38,164 nt of DNA from an uncultured Bacilli bacterium (GCA_947627385.1 CANQVV010000003.1:1-38164); one strand, 5' to 3'; positions 901 to 12,008 are shown, counted from the first letter of the stretch. Numbers and translations: made by a program. The notes: generated from the sequence alone by a model not told the origin.

Positions 901-2619
901 ATGATAAATAAATATATAAAATATCTTATATTAATTGCAATTACGTTTGTTTTAAATATTCATATTTGTTCTGCTATGTCTTATCGAGCTAAAATAACTG
1001 GTTCAAGTGTTAATTTAAGACAAGGGCCAGGTACTAATTATAGTGAAGTTAAAATTCTTGTTAAAAATGCTGAATATAATATGGTAAGTGATACTCTTTA
1101 TCCTGATGAAGGTGGTTGTGAAGAGGGCTGGTATAAAATATATTATGAAGGTAGTGCTTCTGGTTATGTTTGTGCTAAATACGTAGAAAAAAAAGAAATA
1201 GTTTATAATACAGTTCCTACAAGTGCCTGTGAGCAAGAACTTTCTATTGCTGGCTTTCCTGCTACTTATTGGCCAGGATTATGTGCTTTAAAAGCTAAAT
1301 ATCCTAGTTGGCAATTTCAATCAATTATAACTGGTCTTGATTGGAGTACTGCCGTTAATAAAGAAAGTGAATGTGGTACTAGTTACATTGAAAGTAGTGA
1401 TCCTTCCAATGTTGATTCTTCTTGTCGAAATCCTTATTCGTCAAGTTGGTATCCTGCCTCATCAAGTGCAGTTGCTTATTATATGGATCCTAGAAATTGG
1501 TTTAATGAAAAATATATATTTCAATTTGAACATTTAGGTTTTAATGAAGCTTTGGCTGGAATTTATCGTGATGCAGCCATCGACATAATTGATCATGCTG
1601 CTTTTTATAAATATCATGTGGAATTAGGACATGATTTTGGTGGAGCCTTAGTTACAGCAGGAAGATTATCTAATGTAAGCCCTGTTTTTATTGCTGGTAG
1701 AGTTTTACAAGAATTAGGAGCTAAAACATCTGAGTATAATCTATATAGTGGTATATATCCAGGTTTTGAAAATTATTACAATTTTTATAATTATGGAGTT
1801 AGTGATACTTGTGCTACGGGAAAAAGTCCAACTGAATGTGGCTTGTCTTATGCCGTAAATCATGGTTGGTATGGTTTGGAAAATGCCCTAAAAGGAGGAG
1901 CTGATAGTATTTATTCAGGTTATATTTTACAAGGTCAATATTCCGGATATTTGCAAAAATATAATGTAGCTCCAAGTAATGGCAATGTTTATAGTCATCA
2001 ATATATGACTAATATTGCTGCACCATCAAGTGAAGCTAAATCAACATATAATTCTTATAATAAATTAGGTATACTAGGAAATGCCTACATATTTTATATT
2101 CCTGTTTATAATAATATGGATAATTCTAATTATACAGCATCAAGTGGAGCAGTTACTACACCTGATAATAATGATCCATCTAAACTTTCTATAAGTACAA
2201 TTGTTGTTAGTAGTGGTTTTAAATATTCTAGTAATTATATAACGGGAATTAATCCTAATAGTTCAGTAGCAAGTATCAAAAGTGCTCTTGAAAGTATTGC
2301 TGGTGCTAATACAGTAACAATTAAAAATGCTAGTGGTAATGTAGTTGCTGATGGAAATATTGGTACAGGCTTTACTGTTACAGTTCAAAATGCTGAAACT
2401 AATGAGACATTAAATGTTATAGTTCGTGGTGATACCTCTGGTGATGGTAATGTTAATGCCTTAGATTTATTACAAGTACAAAAAAATATATTAGGAACTT
2501 ATGCTTTAAATGGTGCTTATTCTTTGGCTGCTGATACCTCTGGTGATGGCAAAATTAATGCCTTAGATTTATTACAAGTGCAAAAAAATATATTAGGAAC
2601 TTATGTAATTGTTCAATAA
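901..2619 (+). CDS. Secreted SH3-glucosaminidase with C-terminal dockerin
   Basis: A 572-residue exported peptidoglycan hydrolase. A signal peptide covers residues 1-25. A bacterial SH3 domain (about 27-96, with NLRQGPGTNY) would bind cell wall. An endo-beta-N-acetylglucosaminidase (GH73/LytB-like) domain spans about 110-400, with the family signature SPVFIAGRVLQELG at 260-273 and FENYYNFYNYG at 289-299. A beta-rich linker domain runs to about 508. Residues 510-572 hold two dockerin-type calcium-binding repeats, DTSGDGxxNALDLLQVQKN at 511 and 545. Many cysteines lie in the catalytic region. AGGTG precedes the ATG. The next gene, 12 bases on, encodes a membrane-anchored cohesin, the usual dockerin partner. 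Domain calls are firm; substrate is inferred from the family. Confidence 0.85.
   Translation: MINKYIKYLILIAITFVLNIHICSAMSYRAKITGSSVNLRQGPGTNYSEVKILVKNAEYNMVSDTLYPDEGGCEEGWYKIYYEGSASGYVCAKYVEKKEIVYNTVPTSACEQELSIAGFPATYWPGLCALKAKYPSWQFQSIITGLDWSTAVNKESECGTSYIESSDPSNVDSSCRNPYSSSWYPASSSAVAYYMDPRNWFNEKYIFQFEHLGFNEALAGIYRDAAIDIIDHAAFYKYHVELGHDFGGALVTAGRLSNVSPVFIAGRVLQELGAKTSEYNLYSGIYPGFENYYNFYNYGVSDTCATGKSPTECGLSYAVNHGWYGLENALKGGADSIYSGYILQGQYSGYLQKYNVAPSNGNVYSHQYMTNIAAPSSEAKSTYNSYNKLGILGNAYIFYIPVYNNMDNSNYTASSGAVTTPDNNDPSKLSISTIVVSSGFKYSSNYITGINPNSSVASIKSALESIAGANTVTIKNASGNVVADGNIGTGFTVTVQNAETNETLNVIVRGDTSGDGNVNALDLLQVQKNILGTYALNGAYSLAADTSGDGKINALDLLQVQKNILGTYVIVQ
2431..2605 (+). repeat. Near-identical tandem dockerin-coding repeat
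   Basis: The 73-base blocks at 2431-2503 and 2533-2605, 102 bases apart, differ at about four positions. They encode the two calcium-binding loops of the dockerin. Such close DNA identity suggests recent duplication or gene conversion. Confidence 0.85.
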
Positions 2620-2634
2620 TAGAAAGGAATTATG

Positions 2635-4068
2635 ATGAAAAAAATTAAATTTTTAATAATTAGTTTTTTAGCTATTTTAATTTGTCCATTATTTGTTAAT
2701 GCTGCCTCTGGTAGTGTATCAATAAGTGGTACTAATAGAGTTGTTAAAGGTAATAAAATAACTGTAACAGTTACTTTATCTAGTAGTACTTCTATTGGTA
2801 GTTGGAGTATGTCATTGGATTATGATAGTAGTTATCTTAAACTTACATCTTCCTCAGCTGAGGCTGGTGGTAATAAAATGGCTAATGTCGTTACATCAGG
2901 AATAAAATTAAAAAAATATACTTTTACATTTCAAGCGCAAAAAACAGGAACGACTACTTTAAAAATTGGCAATTATGAAGCTTATGCTTTTGATGATATG
3001 AGTGCTATTTCTTTAAGCCCTGGTTCTAAACAAATTAGTATTATTACCCAAGAGCAATTAGAAGCTTCTTATTCCAAAGATAATAATTTAAAAGCCTTAG
3101 CCGTAGAAGGTTATGAAATAACCCCAGAATTTAATAAAGATACCTTAGAATATAGTGTAACTGTTCCTGAGGGAACAACGATGGTTAATGTCATAGCCAC
3201 TAAAAATGATGGTAAAGCAAGTTTAAGTGGTGATGGTGAAGTTCAACTTATTCCCGGAACTAATGAAGTGTCTATTGTGGTTAAAGCTGAAAATGGTAGT
3301 GAGAAAACCTATAAATTAATTATTAATGTTATTGATCAAAATCCTATTAATGTTAAGGTAAATAATATAGATTATACTGTTGTTAAACTTCGAGATGTAT
3401 ATCAATGCCCTAATTTATATACCGAAAGTGAAGTAACAATAAATGATATAGTAGTACCTGCTTGTCATAATGATAAAACTAAATATACCTTAGTAGGTTT
3501 AAAAAGTAGTGATGGTACAGTTAAGAGTTTTATATATGAAAATGGTAAATATACTAAATATAATGAAGTAATTGGTACAAGTTTAAATATTATAGTTTTA
3601 GAATATAATGGTAAATTAAATGGTTTAAAAAAATATAATGAAAAAATAGATGGAAATAGTTATCAAGTATTTAAATCAAATGATAATTCTAAATTTTATG
3701 TAGTTTATGGCATGAATGTAGCTACTGGTAAAAAAGATTTTTATGTTTATGATACAGTAAATAAAACTTTTGGTTTATATGATAGTGATATGATAAATAA
3801 TATGGTTAAATTAAATAAAACATATTTTTATGTAATAGTAGCATTTGGCATAGGATTATTATTAGCATTAATTTGCATAATAAAACTTAGTTCAAAAAAA
3901 CATCAAGTTCAAAAGAAAAATAGTATAGAAGAAATTAAGAATGATAAAAAGAAAATAAAAAAAGAAGAAAAGAAACCCAATGATATTGAAATAGTAGATG
4001 AAGATGAAAATACGGAAACTTATAATATTTTAGAGGAAGATAAGAAACGTAAGAGAAGAAAGAAATAG
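2635..4068 (+). CDS. Membrane-anchored cohesin protein
   Basis: A 477-residue surface protein. A signal peptide covers about 1-24. A cohesin-like beta sandwich spans about 25-137 (VSISG..., ITVTVTLSSS, WSMSLDYDSSYLKL). A cadherin-like beta-sandwich domain spans about 149-232 (NNLKALAVEGYEITPEF, LEYSVTVPEGTTMVNV). An unassigned region with YxVxxxxNxxKF-type repeats follows to about 390. One transmembrane helix lies at about 396-416, with a 61-residue charged cytoplasmic tail. Of the two adjacent ATGs (2632 and 2635), 2635 is better spaced from AAAGGA. It is co-directional with the dockerin enzyme, which it probably holds at the membrane by cohesin-dockerin binding; that link is inferred from the two families. 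Confidence 0.82.
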   Translation: MKKIKFLIISFLAILICPLFVNAASGSVSISGTNRVVKGNKITVTVTLSSSTSIGSWSMSLDYDSSYLKLTSSSAEAGGNKMANVVTSGIKLKKYTFTFQAQKTGTTTLKIGNYEAYAFDDMSAISLSPGSKQISIITQEQLEASYSKDNNLKALAVEGYEITPEFNKDTLEYSVTVPEGTTMVNVIATKNDGKASLSGDGEVQLIPGTNEVSIVVKAENGSEKTYKLIINVIDQNPINVKVNNIDYTVVKLRDVYQCPNLYTESEVTINDIVVPACHNDKTKYTLVGLKSSDGTVKSFIYENGKYTKYNEVIGTSLNIIVLEYNGKLNGLKKYNEKIDGNSYQVFKSNDNSKFYVVYGMNVATGKKDFYVYDTVNKTFGLYDSDMINNMVKLNKTYFYVIVAFGIGLLLALICIIKLSSKKHQVQKKNSIEEIKNDKKKIKKEEKKPNDIEIVDEDENTETYNILEEDKKRKRRKK

Positions 4069-4136: not shown

Positions 4137-5216
4137 ATGAATTGGATGATTAATAATCACAATATATTTGAAATAGTATTAGTAACTTTTTTAGTTAGTG
4201 TCATTTTAGTTCCTATTGCTAAAAAAGTAGCTTATCACATTAATGCCTTAGATATACCTAATGAAAGAAAAATTCATAAAGTACCTATTCCGAGATTAGG
4301 TGGTTTAGCTATTTTTGGCTCATTTTTGATTGGCTATGTTTTATATGGCGATGTAACAACGCAAATGTTATCCATTTTAATTGGTTCATTTTTAATTGTT
4401 ATAGTTGGTATTATCGATGATATTAAACCTGTTAGAGCATTATATAAATTTATAGTACAAACAGTAGCAGCTTTAATTGTCGTTATTTATGGGCAAATAT
4501 ATTTTACAGAAATAACATTTTTAGGACTTAATTTAAAATTTAATTTAGTTACAAGTTATGCCTTATCAACATTTTTTATTTTAGCAATATCTAATGCCAT
4601 TAATTTAATCGATGGATTAGATGGCTTATGTAGTGGTATTAGTTCAATTTATTTTGTAACAATAGCTATTATTGCGTTTATATTAAATAAAATAGGTGGT
4701 TTAGATATAATTTTAGCTTTAATAATGTTAGGAGCAACCCTTGGTTTCTTAGTTTATAATTTTCCCCCAGCTAAAATATTTTTAGGTGATACTGGAAGTG
4801 TATTTTTAGGTTTTATGATTTCCATAATTGCTCTTTTAGGATTTAAAGTAGCAACTTTAACTTCATTAGTAATTCCAATAACGGTTTTATCTATTCCTAT
4901 AATTGATACAGGAATGGCAATTCTTAGAAGACTTTTAAAACATAAGAGTATTGCTACACCAGATAAAGAACATTTTCATCATCAATTATTAAAACTTAAT
5001 TTTTCACCCCGAATTAGTATTTTAATAATATATTTAATTAATATTATATTCTCAGTAGTTTCAATATTATATGTAATAAATGATAGTCGGGAAGCTATTA
5101 TATTATATGTTGTATTATTAATACTTTTATTGTTTGTAATTTTAAAAACTGATATATTATATGACCATAGTAAAAATAAGAAAAATAAAGCTAAAAAAAA
5201 TAAACATAAAAAGTAA
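4137..5216 (+). CDS. tagO: Undecaprenyl-phosphate GlcNAc-1-phosphate transferase (TagO/WecA family)
   Basis: A 359-residue polytopic membrane enzyme of the MraY/WecA/TagO family. It moves an N-acetylhexosamine 1-phosphate from a UDP-sugar to undecaprenyl phosphate, the first step of wall teichoic acid or other surface glycan synthesis. Visible family motifs: DIPNERKIHKVPIPRLGG (39-56), IIDD (92-95), NLIDGLDG (156-163), FLGDTGS (215-221) and EHFHHQLL (278-285). About ten hydrophobic helices and a Lys-rich C-terminus are present. It is transcribed alone from a consensus promoter. No teichoic acid genes lie nearby, so the downstream product is not known. Confidence 0.88.
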   Translation: MNWMINNHNIFEIVLVTFLVSVILVPIAKKVAYHINALDIPNERKIHKVPIPRLGGLAIFGSFLIGYVLYGDVTTQMLSILIGSFLIVIVGIIDDIKPVRALYKFIVQTVAALIVVIYGQIYFTEITFLGLNLKFNLVTSYALSTFFILAISNAINLIDGLDGLCSGISSIYFVTIAIIAFILNKIGGLDIILALIMLGATLGFLVYNFPPAKIFLGDTGSVFLGFMISIIALLGFKVATLTSLVIPITVLSIPIIDTGMAILRRLLKHKSIATPDKEHFHHQLLKLNFSPRISILIIYLINIIFSVVSILYVINDSREAIILYVVLLILLLFVILKTDILYDHSKNKKNKAKKNKHKK

Positions 5217-5871: not shown

Positions 5872-6345
5872 ATGAATACAAAGGGATTTACATTAATTGA
5901 ACTTTTAGGAGTTATTATGCTTTTAGGAATAGTTACTGCTATTGCTGTTCCTAGTATCGGGGCAATTACTGATAGTATTAAAAAAAATATGCTTGATAAA
6001 AAAGTAGAAATTATTGAAAAGGCAGCAAATCTTTTTGGTGAAGATATAAAAGGATCAGTTATTTATAGTAATAAACATTATAAAGAATATCCTTGTAAAA
6101 GTTATATTATTAGTGATTTAGTACCAGATTATTTAGATAAAGATAATGATAATAATTGTATAACTTGTCTTAGTAAAGATGAAAATAATAATTGTACGTC
6201 TTGGAGTACTAGTGATAATATAGGTTGTATAGTTGATCCAAGCAGTCAAGATAAGTATCTAGATAAATTAGAAATCATTATATATTATAAAAATAAAAGA
6301 ATTGCTACCAAAGTAGATACAGAAGGAAATCTTACGTGTAGTTAG
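5872..6345 (+). CDS. Type IV pilin-like (pseudopilin) protein
   Basis: A 157-residue protein with a class III prepilin leader, MNTKG before FTLIELLGV. Cleavage would follow the Gly and leave an N-terminal Phe with Glu at +5. A hydrophobic helix runs to about residue 30. The remainder is a soluble domain with paired cysteines (CITC, NNC) and Asp/Asn-rich turns. No pilus assembly gene is visible nearby. Its place between two ribosome-assembly GTPase genes is unusual. Fibre type (competence, type II-like secretion, adhesion) cannot be decided from sequence. Confidence 0.82.
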   Translation: MNTKGFTLIELLGVIMLLGIVTAIAVPSIGAITDSIKKNMLDKKVEIIEKAANLFGEDIKGSVIYSNKHYKEYPCKSYIISDLVPDYLDKDNDNNCITCLSKDENNNCTSWSTSDNIGCIVDPSSQDKYLDKLEIIIYYKNKRIATKVDTEGNLTCS

Positions 6346-6354
6346 GGGGATTAT

Positions 6355-7659
6355 ATGAAAACAGTTTGCTTAATTGGTAAACCAAATGTTGGTAAAAGTA
6401 GTATTTTTAATCGCTTAATAAATGAAAAAAAAGCGATTATTTTAAGTGAACCTGGTATTACTCGTGATCGTTTATATGGAATTGTTGAATATCAAGGTAA
6501 AAAATTTAATTTAATTGATACTGGTGGTATTCATGGAATAGATGATGATTTTAATAAAGATATTGAAATGCAAGCAATGCTTGCTACGGATGAAGCTGAT
6601 GTAATTTTATTTGTTGTTGATGGTTTGGAAGATTTATCTGAATCAGATAAAAAAATTCGTAATATGTTAAAAAAATCTGGCAAAGAAGTAATAGTAGTAG
6701 TAAATAAATTAGATAATGTAAAAAGAAATGAAAATATATACAATTATTATGAACTTGGTTTTCCCACAGTTTTAGGAGTTTCAGCAGAACATAATTTGGG
6801 ATTTAAAGAATTATTAGATATTTTAACCAAAGATATTGAAGTAATTACCAATGAAGATGAAGATGTTTTAAAATTCTGTTTTATTGGTAGACCTAATGTT
6901 GGAAAATCATCTTTAATAAATGCTCTTTTAAATGAAGAAAGAGTAATAGTTAGTGATGTAGCAGGTACTACAAGGGATGCAATTGATACAAAGTTTACTT
7001 ATAATCAAAAAGATTATATTGTTATTGATACAGCAGGAATGCGTAAAAAAGGTCGTATCTATGAAACAATAGAAAAATATAGTTTGCTTCGTAGTATGAA
7101 AGCCATTGATCGTAGTGATGTTTGTGTTTTAGTAATTGATGCTGAAACAGGTATTATTGAACATGATAAACATATTTTATCTTATGCTCTTGACGCTGGT
7201 AAAGGAGTAGTTATATGTGTTAATAAATGGGATACTGTCAATAATCCTGATGTAGCAATAAAAAAATGGAAATTAGAATTAGAAACTTATTTTAAATTTG
7301 TTCCTTATATTAATTTTGTTTTTACTTCGGCTAAAACAAAGAAAAGACTTGCAACTTTAATGCCAGAAGTAATTAAAGCTTATGAAAACAATAGGAAAGA
7401 AATTAAAACTAGCTTACTTAATGATGTTATAAGTGAGGCTGTATCACTCCATGAAGCTCCTTCATATAAAGGTAAAAGATTAAAAATTTATTTTGTAAGT
7501 CAAACGGGAATGAAACCTCCTAAATTTACATTTAATGTTAATAATAAGAATTTAGTTCATTTTAGTTATGAAAGATATTTAGAAAATAAATTACGGGAAG
7601 CATTTGATTTAGAAGGAACACCCATTATATTGCAATTTAAAAATAAAAGTGATAAGTAA
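6355..7659 (+). CDS. der: Double-domain ribosome GTPase Der (EngA)
   Basis: A 434-residue GTPase with two G domains and a C-terminal KH-like domain, required for 50S assembly. First domain: GKPNVGKSS (8-16), DTGG, NKLD. Second domain: GRPNVGKSS (about residue 178), DTAGM, NKWD. The C-terminal part (GMKPPKFTFNVNN, HFSYERYLENKLREAF) is typical of the KH-like domain. AGGGGGAT is the SD. Length and domain order match the family. Confidence 0.95.
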   Translation: MKTVCLIGKPNVGKSSIFNRLINEKKAIILSEPGITRDRLYGIVEYQGKKFNLIDTGGIHGIDDDFNKDIEMQAMLATDEADVILFVVDGLEDLSESDKKIRNMLKKSGKEVIVVVNKLDNVKRNENIYNYYELGFPTVLGVSAEHNLGFKELLDILTKDIEVITNEDEDVLKFCFIGRPNVGKSSLINALLNEERVIVSDVAGTTRDAIDTKFTYNQKDYIVIDTAGMRKKGRIYETIEKYSLLRSMKAIDRSDVCVLVIDAETGIIEHDKHILSYALDAGKGVVICVNKWDTVNNPDVAIKKWKLELETYFKFVPYINFVFTSAKTKKRLATLMPEVIKAYENNRKEIKTSLLNDVISEAVSLHEAPSYKGKRLKIYFVSQTGMKPPKFTFNVNNKNLVHFSYERYLENKLREAFDLEGTPIILQFKNKSDK

Positions 7660-7675
7660 AATTATTACTTTTTTT
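7654..7675 (+). terminator. Weak terminator after der
   Basis: AAGTAA (7654-7659) pairs with TTACTT (7665-7670), followed by T's. The stem is only six AT-rich pairs and includes the stop codon. Confidence 0.45.
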
Positions 7676-7708
7676 GGTATTAATTTTTAAAAAATTAGTT
7701 TTAAGATA

Positions 7709-7737
7709 TTGACAACTATTTTTTATTTTTGTAGAAT
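7709..7737 (+). promoter_or_regulatory. Consensus sigma-A promoter of the SipW-type secreted protein
   Basis: A perfect TTGACA (7709-7714), a 17-base spacer, and TAGAAT (7732-7737). A 5' leader of about 50 bases ends in a strong AAGGAGG SD. Confidence 0.85.
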
Positions 7738-7796
7738 TATATTAGAAATATAGAAGATAGTATTTCGAAAATTATTAAAATGGAAGGAGGGAAATA

Positions 7797-8453
7797 ATGG
7801 ATAAGAAAAATACAATGTTATTAACAGTTATTGCTGTTGCCACTCTTTTAGTTGCTGTTGTAGGTGCAACATTCGCATATTTTGCAGTTTCAGTAGAACA
7901 AGGAACAGCTGGATCTACTAACGTTACTGGTAGTACTCCTGAACAACCTGGTACTGTTACATTTGCCAATGAAAATGCTAATTTGTACTTAAAATTATCA
8001 GCAGCTGATATGGGTCAAGGAAACGAAAAACCATATTATGCAGTTACTACCAAAGATAGTAGAGGCACAGATGCTACTCCTGTTAATATCATTAAAGCTA
8101 GTGTATCAGGTGGACCAAGTGGAGAAACTTATACTTGCAAAGGTAAAGTAAATGTAACACTTGATGGTACAATGGTTGAACAATTAGAAGCTAATGAAGC
8201 AAAAGTTGTTTTAGCTGGTTTAACTGGAACTGATCTTGAAAAAGATTTAAGTACTGTTAAAGTTGATAAAAGTTATTCTATTAATGATGCTACGTTTACT
8301 GTAACAGAAGGTACTGAACTTCATATTACAGCATTAGTGTCATTAACTAATACAAATCAACCACAACAAACTCGTTTAGCTGATAAAGATTTAACAGTTA
8401 CAATTGCTCTTGGTGAAGGCGTAACTTGTGATACAACAGGAGATGCTGAATAA
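7797..8453 (+). CDS. Secreted protein with SipW-type signal peptide (TasA/CalY-like candidate)
   Basis: A 218-residue exported protein. Its start, MDKKNTMLLTVIAVATLL followed by VAVVGATFAYF, resembles the SipW-dependent signal class of TasA, CalY and related fibre proteins; cleavage is expected near residue 27-33. The mature part is Thr/Val/Gly-rich and beta-prone, with two cysteines (YTCKG, GVTCDTT) that could pair. It is not otherwise recognised. A consensus promoter, a near-perfect SD and more C/G-rich codons than its neighbours suggest high expression. No SipW or sortase gene is seen here. An abundant surface or matrix protein is the best guess. Confidence 0.72.
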   Translation: MDKKNTMLLTVIAVATLLVAVVGATFAYFAVSVEQGTAGSTNVTGSTPEQPGTVTFANENANLYLKLSAADMGQGNEKPYYAVTTKDSRGTDATPVNIIKASVSGGPSGETYTCKGKVNVTLDGTMVEQLEANEAKVVLAGLTGTDLEKDLSTVKVDKSYSINDATFTVTEGTELHITALVSLTNTNQPQQTRLADKDLTVTIALGEGVTCDTTGDAE

Positions 8454-8480
8454 CATATCCGTTATTTAACTTAAAATTTT

Positions 8481-8509
8481 AAAAAAGAAGTATTATCTTC
8501 TTTTTTTTT
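8481..8509 (+). terminator. Terminator after the SipW-type protein gene
   Basis: AAAAAAGAAG (8481-8490) pairs with CTTCTTTTTT (8497-8506) across a TATTAT loop, within a T run. Confidence 0.8.
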
Positions 8510-8591
8510 GCAATTTTTTTGCAAAAATTTCTTTAAAAAAAAGGAAATAGAGATAAAAAAGCGTAAATATAAAGTGAAAGGAGGTAAAAAT

Positions 8592-9479
8592 ATCACGCTT
8601 CAAGAAGAAAAATCAATTCTAATGTATGATCGAATATTTAAAACTATAATAGGGAATCATAAAGATCCTAAAATCTTAGAATATGTCTTAAAAGATATAT
8701 TAGAAGAAGAAGTCCATATAAAGGAATTTGTGAATACCAATTTAAAGGTAAGGAATAAAAAAGAAAGAGTCAAAGTAACAGATTTGATAGTAACAAGTAG
8801 TAAAGGAAAAGAAATATTAGTTGAAGTAAATAGTAATTATTCTAAAAGTATTAAGATAAGGAACTTGTCATATTATTGTTCATACTATTCTCAGATAGTA
8901 GAAAGAGGAAGAGAATATGAAGAAGAGATGGAAACAGTATTAATAAATTTAAACTATCAAATGAATAAAAGCTTACCGATGAAAGAAACCTATTATATAA
9001 TTGGCAAAGAAAGAGGGAAAAGATATACAAATAGTTTTAAAATAATAGATGTGAATCTTGCTAAATATAAAGAACTTTGTTATGATGAGTGTATCAAAGG
9101 GAATAAAGAACATATACATATAGTAATGTTAAATTCAAATATAGAAGAAATAAAAAAGTTAAGTAAAAAAGATGAAGTAGTAAAGGAGTATGAAGAGAAG
9201 ATGTTAACATTAACCAAAGATGGAGTAGTAATAAATCATTTAAGTTATGAAGAAGACCAAGAGAAAATAATGCGATCATTAAAAAAAGAATATAGAAAAG
9301 AAGGATTAGAAGAAGGAAAAGAAAAAGGATTTAAAATTGGTCTTAAAGAAGGCGCAATTAAAAGTAAAAAAGATATTGCTAAAAATATGTTAAAAGATAA
9401 CTTACCAATTGAAACTATAATAAAATACACATCCATAACAGAAAAAGAATTGCAAAAAATTACAAAAGAATTAAATTAA
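8592..9479 (+). CDS. Rpn / PD-(D/E)XK nuclease-transposase family protein
   Basis: About 295 residues of a PD-(D/E)XK nuclease-family 'transposase' (PF12784/Rpn-like), a group linked to recombination-promoting nucleases. Family features: MYDRIFKTIIGNHKDPKILEYVLKD split by the conserved FK, then VTDLIVTSSKGKEILVEVN as the D...ExN core, and a C-terminal coiled segment rich in Glu/Lys with EGLEEGKEKG repeats. The start is a problem. The only strong SD (AAAGGAGGT, 8577-8585) is ideally spaced from ATC at 8592, not from ATG. The frame stays open upstream to TTG 8508, inside the previous terminator, and the next ATG is 8622. It may be a start-codon mutant. Confidence 0.72.
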   Translation: MTLQEEKSILMYDRIFKTIIGNHKDPKILEYVLKDILEEEVHIKEFVNTNLKVRNKKERVKVTDLIVTSSKGKEILVEVNSNYSKSIKIRNLSYYCSYYSQIVERGREYEEEMETVLINLNYQMNKSLPMKETYYIIGKERGKRYTNSFKIIDVNLAKYKELCYDECIKGNKEHIHIVMLNSNIEEIKKLSKKDEVVKEYEEKMLTLTKDGVVINHLSYEEDQEKIMRSLKKEYRKEGLEEGKEKGFKIGLKEGAIKSKKDIAKNMLKDNLPIETIIKYTSITEKELQKITKELN

Positions 9480-9489
9480 GAATAAAGTT

Positions 9490-9523
9490 AGATAACTTGA
9501 TGATTCATGTTATCTTTTTTTTT
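9490..9523 (+). terminator. Terminator after the nuclease-family gene
   Basis: AGATAAC (9490-9496) pairs with GTTATCT (9509-9515), followed by nine T's. Confidence 0.85.
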
Positions 9524-9588
9524 ATTTTTAAATATTTAAAGCCGACACTAAAAATAATGAAATTATTATATTATATTAGGGTGTTTTT

Positions 9589-10389
9589 ATGGTTAATTTT
9601 TATATTAATAGTTCAGTTTATATTCAAGTGTTATTAGCAACATTAATGACTTGGGGGATTACAACATTAGGCTCAGCAATAGTTTTTTTCTTTAAAAAAG
9701 TTAATAATAATATTTTAGATGCAATGCTTGGGTTATCAGCAGGTGTTATGATTTCGGCATCTTTTTGGTCACTTTTAAATCCAGCAATTAATGGTGCTGA
9801 TGCGTTAGGAATGTGCTCTTGGCTAATAGTTTCCTTAGGCTTTTTATGTGGTGGTTTGTTTTTAATTATTAGTGACTTATTTTTTGATAAATATTTAAGT
9901 AAGAAAAAAACTAAAAATATTAAAGGCATTAAAAGAACTTTAATGTTAATGTTTTCAATTACTTTACATAATATTCCCGAAGGTCTTGCAATAGGTGTAG
10001 CCTTTGGTAGTATAGCCTTAGGTATTAAAGAAGCTAATTTAACCGCAGCAGTAATGCTTGCTATTGGAGTTGGGATTCAAAATTTTCCCGAAGGAACAGC
10101 CGTCAGTTTGCCCCTTCGAAGAGAAAATATGAGTCGTTTAAAATCATTTATTTATGGTTCTTTAAGTGGAATAGTCGAACCCATAGCTGGTTTATTTGGT
10201 TGTCTTTTAGTTATTTATGTTCAAAATATTTTGCCTTTTTTTCTAAGTTTTGCAGCCGGGGCAATGATATATGTAGCTGTTAGTGAACTTATACCAGAAA
10301 GTCAACAAAATAAGCATAAAGGTTTAATGAATTTATTTATCATTTTAGGATTTGTAATTATGATGTTACTTGATGTTGCATTTAGTTAA
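9589..10389 (+). CDS. ZIP family metal transporter
   Basis: A 266-residue polytopic membrane protein of the ZIP (ZupT-like) family, which imports divalent metals such as zinc, iron or manganese. The two signature helices carry the metal-site motifs HNIPEGLAIGVAFG (about 124-137) and QNFPEGTAVSLPLR (about 164-177). About eight hydrophobic segments are present, and the His/Lys-rich loop (KKKTKNIKGIKR) precedes helix IV as usual. AGGGTG is the SD. It is flanked by terminators or promoters on both sides, so it is probably monocistronic. The specific metal cannot be told. Confidence 0.9.
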   Translation: MVNFYINSSVYIQVLLATLMTWGITTLGSAIVFFFKKVNNNILDAMLGLSAGVMISASFWSLLNPAINGADALGMCSWLIVSLGFLCGGLFLIISDLFFDKYLSKKKTKNIKGIKRTLMLMFSITLHNIPEGLAIGVAFGSIALGIKEANLTAAVMLAIGVGIQNFPEGTAVSLPLRRENMSRLKSFIYGSLSGIVEPIAGLFGCLLVIYVQNILPFFLSFAAGAMIYVAVSELIPESQQNKHKGLMNLFIILGFVIMMLLDVAFS

Positions 10390-10393
10390 ATAC

Positions 10394-10422
10394 TTGTAAT
10401 AATAATTTAAATAAGTTAAAAT
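10394..10422 (+). promoter_or_regulatory. Promoter of the first pseudopilin of the cluster
   Basis: TTGTAA (10394-10399), a 17-base spacer, and TAAAAT (10417-10422), 18 bases before the ATG. Confidence 0.6.
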
Positions 10423-10439
10423 TATTATAAGGTGAGAGT

Positions 10440-11396
10440 ATGAATAATAAGGGATTTACATTAATTGAATTATTAGCCTCTATAACAATACTTGCACTAG
10501 TTATTGGTCTTGCCGTACCAAGTATAAATGGTGTTACAAAAATAATTCAAAGAAATCACCGTAATAATCAAATCAAAAATATTGAAATAGCTGCTTCTAA
10601 ATATGCTTTTGATACAAATGAAACATTAATTTTTGTCGATAAATTAGTAACAGAAGGGTATATCACTGCTGATAATGAAGATGGTGATATAAAAGATTCT
10701 TATAATAATGAAAGACTTAATTGTTATTTAGTTAAAATGGAAAAGGTAAAAGATCATTATAATGCTTATTTTCAAGATGGTAATAATTATGATAATGATG
10801 GAGTATGTGATAAAAGTAAACTTAATGAATTACAAGAAGAAATTTTAATTAACGTAACTAATAATGGGGTTAATATAACAGATATAAATAGTTGGTTAAA
10901 AGGTAGTATTACTTTAAGAGCATATAGTAATACTTTGGAATTAAATTGTAATGTTAATAGATGTAATTGGTTAAGTAGTACAGGTGGTTTTAGCAAAAGT
11001 GAAGAAGTAACAATAAATCCTAGTGGTGTATTAGAAACTAGATATACATTTCAAATGGTTAAAGATGAAAAGACAATTAAAAGATATAATAGTAGTATTT
11101 ATTTAAAAATTGATAATGAAAATCCTACTATTTATGAAGATGAAATAAATATAAGAGATAAAAATATTCCTACTAATTCAAAAAGGGTAACTATTTCGGC
11201 CTCAGATGGAAAAGGCTCAGGAATAGCTGGTTATTATTTGGGATTAGATACCGGGGCAACTTGTAGTAATATTTCTCTTTCTTATCAAAAAGAAAATTAT
11301 TTTGATGTGCTTAATAATGGTAATTATATAATTTGTGTTAAAGATAATGTCGGTAATATATCTAGTAGTAGTATAATTATTAATAATATTGTATGA
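10440..11396 (+). CDS. Large pseudopilin with C-terminal Ig-like domain
   Basis: A 318-residue type IV pilin-like protein. The prepilin leader MNNKG precedes FTLIELLASITIL, with Glu at +5 and a hydrophobic helix to about residue 30. The middle is unassigned (DEDGDIKDSYNNERLNCYL). The C-terminal 110 residues look like a bacterial Ig-type beta sandwich (KRVTISASDGKGSGIAGYYLG, NGNYIICVKDNVGN). The size and extra domain suggest a minor or tip pilin with an adhesive end; that is inference. It has its own promoter and ends in TGA. Two smaller pilin genes follow after a separate promoter. Confidence 0.8.
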   Translation: MNNKGFTLIELLASITILALVIGLAVPSINGVTKIIQRNHRNNQIKNIEIAASKYAFDTNETLIFVDKLVTEGYITADNEDGDIKDSYNNERLNCYLVKMEKVKDHYNAYFQDGNNYDNDGVCDKSKLNELQEEILINVTNNGVNITDINSWLKGSITLRAYSNTLELNCNVNRCNWLSSTGGFSKSEEVTINPSGVLETRYTFQMVKDEKTIKRYNSSIYLKIDNENPTIYEDEINIRDKNIPTNSKRVTISASDGKGSGIAGYYLGLDTGATCSNISLSYQKENYFDVLNNGNYIICVKDNVGNISSSSIIINNIV

Positions 11397-11424
11397 TTTT
11401 ATACGTAAAGTTACAACCTTATAA

Positions 11425-11453
11425 TTGACATTAAATCATAATTATTGTAAGAT
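11425..11453 (+). promoter_or_regulatory. Sigma-A promoter of the paired pseudopilins
   Basis: TTGACA (11425-11430), a 17-base spacer, and TAAGAT (11448-11453). Confidence 0.75.
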
Positions 11454-11480
11454 TAATTTAAGAATAGAGGTGAAAGTTTG

Positions 11481-12008
11481 ATGAAAACTTTTAAAGATAA
11501 GAAAGGTTTTACTTTGATAGAGTTATTAGCAGTAATTGTTGTTCTAGCTATTGTAACAGCGCTTGCTATGACTACTATGCTTCCTCTTATGAACAAAGCA
11601 ATTAAAAATGGTTTTGTTGATGAAGCTAATGCTGCAAGAGAAACGGCATCTGATGTTATGACATTAATCGGTATTGGTTCTTTTGATGAACCAGAAGCTG
11701 GCCCTGATTATCAATCCAATGATAATAAAACATGTATTTCTCTTAAACTAATGGCTGAAAGAGGATTATATGAAAAAGATATAGAATATTTCACAAATGG
11801 AGATTATGCTGGAAAGGTAATTATTACTAAATCTGGTGAGAGTAGTAATAATTATACATATAAAGTAGTTATGCATAATGATAGATATTATACTGGCAAA
11901 ACAGATGGCGGAAAAGTTACTGATTCTGATGATGATGTCAAAAATTATGATAAAACTACTTATCCTGATACAACATTTAATTGTACAACTAATGATATTG
12001 GGGACTAA
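11481..12008 (+). CDS. Type IV pilin-like protein
   Basis: A 175-residue prepilin-like protein. The start is ATG 11481 rather than TTG 11478, because GAGGTGA lies seven bases before it. After a ten-residue basic leader (MKTFKDKKG), FTLIELLAVIVVLAIVTALA gives the processing site with Glu at +5 and the assembly helix. The soluble domain has two cysteines (NKTCIS, TFNCTT) and is Asp/Asn-rich. The first 30 mature residues are almost identical to those of the next gene, two bases downstream, so the pair arose by duplication and is probably co-translated from one promoter. Confidence 0.83.
   Translation: MKTFKDKKGFTLIELLAVIVVLAIVTALAMTTMLPLMNKAIKNGFVDEANAARETASDVMTLIGIGSFDEPEAGPDYQSNDNKTCISLKLMAERGLYEKDIEYFTNGDYAGKVIITKSGESSNNYTYKVVMHNDRYYTGKTDGGKVTDSDDDVKNYDKTTYPDTTFNCTTNDIGD

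Follow-up and report, generated by a model that had tools for sequence, protein, structure and literature searches.

We describe a two-gene unit of gut Bacilli that most likely uses the plug and socket of the cellulosome to hold a wall-cutting enzyme, not to digest plants. Plant-fibre degradation is the setting in which cohesin-dockerin pairs are mostly known; in the present case the two genes probably encode a dedicated two-component tether, in which a membrane-anchored cohesin holds a dockerin-tagged wall hydrolase for hydrolysis of the cell's own wall. In this role cohesin and dockerin seem to form a conserved two-gene component of wall housekeeping in reduced, uncultured gut Bacilli, and it would offer a testable way for a bacterium to hold a lytic enzyme at its own membrane.

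The window, by which we mean the whole stretch of DNA analysed here, spans all 38,164 bases of contig C3 in a draft genome of 1.16 Mb that is 71% complete. Related genomes come from gut metagenomes of rabbits, chickens, and ruminants and bear the labels uncultured Bacilli, Tenericutes, Mycoplasmatota, or Candidatus Caccenecus; given such labels and the small genome sizes, we infer that the host and its relatives belong to the order RF39. The hosts of the two-gene unit are gut bacteria of the class Bacilli with a wall, and many have very small genomes. A genome search recovered five transpeptidase-domain proteins in the window genome, which suggests that the host has wall-making machinery and agrees with the prediction that most RF39 keep peptidoglycan (PMC10868615); most lyt/cwl wall endopeptidases have been lost from this order (PMC10868615).

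Domain architecture of the hydrolase and its neighbor

The preliminary description had reported two adjacent genes, and both the open reading frames and the domains assigned to them are borne out by Pfam and PDB matches. The upstream gene (901..2619, + strand) encodes a secreted, dockerin-tagged SH3 and glucosaminidase protein of 572 aa. Its N-terminal signal peptide is followed by an SH3_3 domain (residues 35-96, 1003..1188; PF08239, 33.3 bits) and a GH73/SagB-like glucosaminidase region (residues 175-403, 1423..2109), for which the nearest solved glucosaminidases are the Staphylococcus aureus SagB structures 6fxp and 6u0o (E 2e-13). Pfam searches found no PF01832 (Glucosaminidase) match in this protein or in the rest of the genome, and the glucosaminidase assignment therefore rests on the PDB matches. 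Within this region, E271 (1711-1713) aligns to the GH73 catalytic glutamate and is invariant in 19 relatives. A beta-rich module with just weak Ig-like Pfam matches (residues about 425-505, 2173..2415) precedes the dockerin and is kept in the alignment of relatives. Inspection of the sequence showed no membrane segment, lipobox, or sortase signal in the hydrolase, and the lack of an anchor of its own further supports the tether that the preliminary description had proposed. No paralogue of the hydrolase was found in the 71% complete draft.

The dockerin itself is of type I (residues 510-565, 2428..2595; PF00404, 50-55 bits). Its F-hand repeats, DTSGDGNVNALDLLQVQKNILG and DTSGDGKINALDLLQVQKNILG, had been described as two dockerin repeats; the repeats are present, but they form the two F-hand halves of one dockerin. 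Calcium ligand positions 1, 3, 5, 9, and 12 read D-S-D-N-D in both repeats, and position 14 is L524 in the first and L558 in the second. The Ala-Leu at positions 10-11 resembles that of mesophilic clostridial dockerins. The AlphaFold prediction has a pLDDT of 90-95 in the better of two runs, and its fold matches PDB 8x39 with Z 12.2 and an rmsd of 1.6 over 68 residues (VIA).

After a gap of 12 bp that carries an AAAGGA ribosome-binding site (2620..2631), the second gene (2632..4068, + strand) encodes a putative membrane-anchored cohesin receptor of 478 aa. A signal peptide is followed by the cohesin domain (residues 26-142, 2707..3057), which includes G56 (2797-2799) within an IGSW motif, a cadherin-like beta sandwich (residues 154-231, 3091..3324; PF12733, 35.6 bits), and a conserved ectodomain without family that is defined by the alignment of relatives (residues 236-390, 3337..3801). 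A transmembrane segment shared by relatives (residues about 397-416, 3820..3879) leads into a Lys/Glu-rich basic tail, predicted to be cytoplasmic, that ends in EDENTETYNILEEDKKRKRRKK (3880..4065). The same arrangement of one transmembrane segment in the C-terminal half and then a basic stretch is found in 103 of 104 related anchors, and almost every relative has an ectodomain of ~400 residues, irrespective of receptor type. Matches to Chagasin, FAM176, TMEM51, and Kelch in the Pfam scan fell below cut-off and were dismissed.

The cohesin scored 26.1 bits in a genome search with PF00963 (cut-off 24.1 bits), whereas hmmscan of the full anchor under normal filters missed it; the same domain in relatives reaches up to 37 bits. 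The profile searches thus recover all three families that the preliminary description had named, and its cohesin call also holds at the level of structure. AlphaFold modeled the domain with a pLDDT of about 97 (better of two runs), and the 25 best VIA-align matches to the predicted fold are all cohesins (Z 14.6-12.3). The Clostridium perfringens cohesins 2jh2, 2w1n, and 2vo8 score highest (Z 14.5-14.6), with Z 14.6 and an rmsd of 2.3 over 115 residues for 2jh2, followed by cohesins of C. cellulolyticum and C. thermocellum (Z 12.6-13.4; 2vn5, Z 13.1). Foldseek gave the same result on the predicted folds. The two modules are bona fide members of the cohesin and dockerin families.

A WecA/MraY-family glycosyl-phosphate transferase (PF00953; window 4137-5216) lies directly downstream of the anchor gene, and a WecA-family gene stands 3' of the pair in many genus members.

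Conservation and exclusivity of the gene pair

To follow the pair beyond the window, we searched 60 related genomes, in which PF00963 matched 31 and PF00404 matched 36, almost all within the genus, and we ran an anchor profile on 84,980 species genomes, which returned 66 loci. Within the genus we recovered 28 adjacent hydrolase-anchor pairs in a single gene order, the two genes being separated by -17 to 20 bp. A dockerin protein lies directly upstream in all 62 related anchors with readable 5' sequence, and upstream of 36 of 37 anchors in further genera of the family; the exception (L236) is preceded by a hydrolase without a dockerin. The anchor profile also matches 79 of 395 Bacilli genomes, some solely through the cadherin-like part. 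Eight genomes of genus members that are at least 90% complete (G006, G018, G023, G025, G030, G031, G034, and G036) hold exactly one dockerin match and one cohesin match, side by side. The two genes are neighbors in dozens of species, far beyond chance, and the pair is old.

The cargo upstream of the anchor also bears on its role. Among ten upstream proteins scanned in other Bacilli families, eight match PF01832 (L186, L187, L190, L191, L192, L196, L203, and weakly L202), one is a GH25 muramidase (L185), and the tenth (L194) matches the hydrolase profile alone. These assignments suggest that the fold of the cargo can vary while its predicted activity class, the cutting of peptidoglycan glycans, stays the same, and it is mainly this constancy of cargo class across changing folds that leads us to interpret the unit as a tether for wall hydrolases.

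Coevolution of the dockerin and its proposed receptor domain

We compared domain distance matrices across 51 cohesin-type pairs, controlling for the other domains. The partial correlation between dockerin and cohesin was 0.46 (0 of 2000 permutations), and that of any other cross-protein domain pair was at most 0.23. Residual correlations above zero for SH3-cohesin (0.23) and glucosaminidase-cohesin (0.20) indicate that shared history was reduced but not fully removed. In a broader set of 101 non-redundant pairs, which spans several families and includes Ig-like receptors, the dockerin correlated with the first domain of the anchor at a partial r of 0.63 and with the rest of the anchor at 0.03, so that the signal is specific to the first domain.

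Individual residues follow the same trend. Leucine occupies dockerin position 14 in 74 of 82 aligned pairs, and 71 of these 74 have glycine at the cohesin position corresponding to G56. In five clear cohesin pairs position 14 is instead Ala, Gly, or Ser, always in both repeats, and none of the five retains Gly56, which is replaced by Ile/Val, Ser, or Tyr. The pairs that have lost Leu14 fall in four lineages (L155; L140 and L163; L231; L232), and the change from Leu to Ala together with Gly to Val/Ile arose separately in L155 and L140, since their nearest relatives (L109 and the window for the former, L172 for the latter) retain Leu and Gly. Three Val14 pairs are of the Ig-like receptor type and align poorly. 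We take position 14 to lie on the recognition helix of the dockerin, and, from an alignment made by eye, G56 to lie beside Asn37 and Asp39 on the recognition strand of the C. thermocellum cohesin. The joint change of both repeats fits the dual binding mode of clostridial dockerins to which the titles of 2vn5 and 2vn6 refer. In roughly a hundred species, plug (the dockerin) and socket (the first domain) have evolved in step.

Joint replacement of plug and socket

In five genus members (G004, G009, G014, G019, and G021) both sides of the pair have been swapped: the hydrolase carries a dockerin of another type (GATDYVKIKNYIM), and a shorter Ig-like domain replaces the cohesin. Everything from the cadherin-like domain through the ectodomain and membrane segment to the tail is retained in the swapped anchors, which are 42-46% identical overall to that of the window; at four of the five loci the WecA-family gene again follows directly, as it does behind cohesin-type anchors. 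In a tree of the C-terminal half of the anchor, the swapped members fall inside the genus clade (100/99), indicating that the receptor domain was exchanged on an otherwise preserved anchor.

Closest to Big_2, the Ig-like first domain is also found on the same backbone in other Bacilli families, and here as in the genus it always occurs with a matching dockerin type (GATDYVKIKN, SADLLRMRQ, DKLDYLAVLRDYYGY, and others). In profile comparisons with the cohesin, two other divergent receptor types align at 95% probability, whereas the Ig-like type aligns at 75% over 41 columns only (cadherin control, 0.2%). We tentatively suggest, and would not press the point, that at least two kinds of receptor may exist for dockerins, in which case the family would comprise diversified, mutually specific pairs for tethering wall hydrolases, some with receptors that are not classical cohesins. 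The ~100 plug-and-socket pairs that nature supplies here, which have coevolved and are probably specific to one another, could serve the study of specificity change and as orthogonal parts for protein assembly.

Proposed mechanism

In the tether that we favor, the hydrolase would be secreted in soluble form, its SH3 and glucosaminidase parts followed by a calcium-type dockerin at the C terminus, while the neighboring gene would give rise to a protein that crosses the membrane once and bears a cohesin at its N terminus, spaced away from the membrane by the cadherin-like domain and the conserved ectodomain. The dockerin would clip into the cohesin of the neighboring anchor, and the glycan-cutting enzyme, held much as SagB is by SpdC, would work near the cell's own membrane face. 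Its substrate would presumably be nascent or inner peptidoglycan, and as the ectodomain is nearly constant at ~400 residues we propose that the enzyme is held at a set distance from the membrane. We infer dockerin-cohesin binding, its dependence on calcium, the activity of the enzyme, its own-wall substrate, and positional control. The preliminary description had proposed the same tether together with a scaffold shared among other dockerin proteins; adjacency, exclusive pairs, coevolution, residue covariation, and the joint swap argue for the former, and the shared scaffold finds no support in the distribution of the other dockerins (see below).

Alternative explanations

A tethered enzyme could also face outward, and the surface-displayed hydrolase would then digest foreign walls or free muropeptides, as food or as a weapon (the "lyticome" idea). 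RF39 miss steps toward peptidoglycan precursors and may need scavenged muropeptides (PMC10868615), and lysozyme activity and dockerin-bearing wall hydrolases have been reported in cellulosomes (PMC6403190). We nevertheless consider this explanation unlikely, given that the anchor is a single-pass protein with ~400 ectodomain residues that is neither wall-anchored nor a multi-cohesin scaffold, that the hydrolase gene is single copy and kept through the genus, that the pair adjoins a WecA/MraY-type envelope gene, and that the sortases encoded in the window genome could have displayed the hydrolase further out. It is more doubtful still that the window dockerin and cohesin are only co-regulated and that each has another partner, because many relatives hold only this one dockerin and one cohesin, and because first-domain coevolution, the covariation of position 14 with G56, and the joint swap are hard to explain otherwise. 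On the side of separate partners stand two more cohesins in the window genome and the AlphaFold prediction of the complex, which reached a pTM of 0.52 and 0.56 in two runs and folded both domains but gave no confident placement of the dockerin on the cohesin; this model is a modeling device in which dockerin and cohesin were fused and two in-frame stops read as Gln (NCBI table 6), and its signal-peptide linker makes it a poor test of docking.

That the unit is a reduced cellulosome, with a remnant scaffold gathering several dockerin enzymes, is very improbable, even though its cohesin and dockerin are true members of cellulosomal families. Profile searches of the 71% complete draft found five dockerin proteins and three cohesin proteins in total, and the four additional dockerin proteins form a cluster on contig C14 that also contains two cohesin anchors, separate from that of the window. 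The recognition residues of the C14 dockerins are Met-Pro/Met-Ala, unlike those of the window dockerin, which argues against the earlier suggestion that they share its scaffold. Each of the three cohesin proteins in the draft has a single cohesin match and none is a multi-cohesin scaffoldin; the five dockerin proteins comprise the wall hydrolase and surface proteins with CAP, LRR, or Big_2 domains, and no enzyme acting on plant polysaccharides is among them. By the features tested, the window system is not a cellulosome.

The C14 cluster (L008:7903-20000 and L009:2-1183; G000:C14) encodes dockerin surface proteins with Big_2, a CAP domain, and LRR_5. One of its anchors combines a cohesin with at least nine Big_2 repeats and a sortase-like signal (SPKTGD), and the other combines a cohesin with Big_2 and a membrane segment. 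Genus members (L011-L017, L103; G022:C5, G016:C50, G012:C18, and others) also have cohesins in proteins of 2400-4000 aa, some of which carry a dockerin in the same reading frame.

Comparison to known systems

By analogy, the closest functional counterpart of the predicted tether is SagB-SpdC of S. aureus (6u0o), in which a membrane protein binds a GH73 glucosaminidase, governs where and how it cuts glycan, including its product length, and so releases new peptidoglycan (PMC12272431). Both systems combine a glucosaminidase with a membrane protein, and the window enzyme matches SagB best; SpdC, however, is a multi-pass protein of the CAAX-protease family, whereas the window anchor is an unrelated single-pass protein with a predicted dockerin-cohesin link and, in the Pfam scan, no CAAX-protease-like match. 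The non-cellulosomal cohesins of C. perfringens (2jh2, 2w1n, and 2vo8), which also have dockerin partners, show the closest fold and, as in the window, are single cohesins outside a cellulosome, but they occur on secreted glycoside hydrolases (PMC12997984) rather than on a membrane anchor with a peptidoglycan hydrolase as cargo.

Both module families are shared with the type I cohesin-dockerin system of cellulosomes, from which the window pair differs in its one cohesin and one dockerin neighbor, without a multi-cohesin scaffoldin or plant-polymer enzymes. Wall-hydrolase-type domains fused to dockerins, as in the window, have been reported in Ruminococcus: binding to the surface cohesin ScaE was described for RflaF_05439 (NlpC/P60-XDoc; PMC3573020), and dockerin-bearing lysozymes for R. 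champanellensis (PMC6403190). The Ruminococcus wall enzymes join a large cellulosome, whereas the window hydrolase has a private partner gene next to it, conserved without any cellulosome. In the literature searched, with subscription journals mostly outside its scope, no study turned up that describes an adjacent, membrane-anchored cohesin dedicated to a peptidoglycan hydrolase.

Additional observations

Many anchors end in a motif of the form Tyr-x-Ile/Leu-Phe/Leu-Glu-Asp-Asp-Lys/Arg with a lysine run, a possible intracellular docking site. As a strict pattern finds this motif (YDIFEDDRKK) in just 35 of 104 anchors, we left it out of the proposed mechanism. In the hydrolases that we term type B (L148:4279-5997 and L162:3945-5765), the glucosaminidase is a circular permutation of that in the window enzyme: residues 109-204 correspond to window residues 320-416, and residues 221-424 to 111-318. 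One locus (L104; G014:C3) encodes a second pair, in which an M6 (immune-inhibitor-A-like) peptidase with a dockerin (7422-10358) lies beside another Ig and cadherin-like protein (10345-11595), and dockerin proteins about 3000 aa long (L105) also occur in this genome. Close to the pair, the window further encodes a secreted protein without a family match (7797-8453) and two type IV pilin-like proteins (N_methyl; 5872-6345 and 10440-11396).
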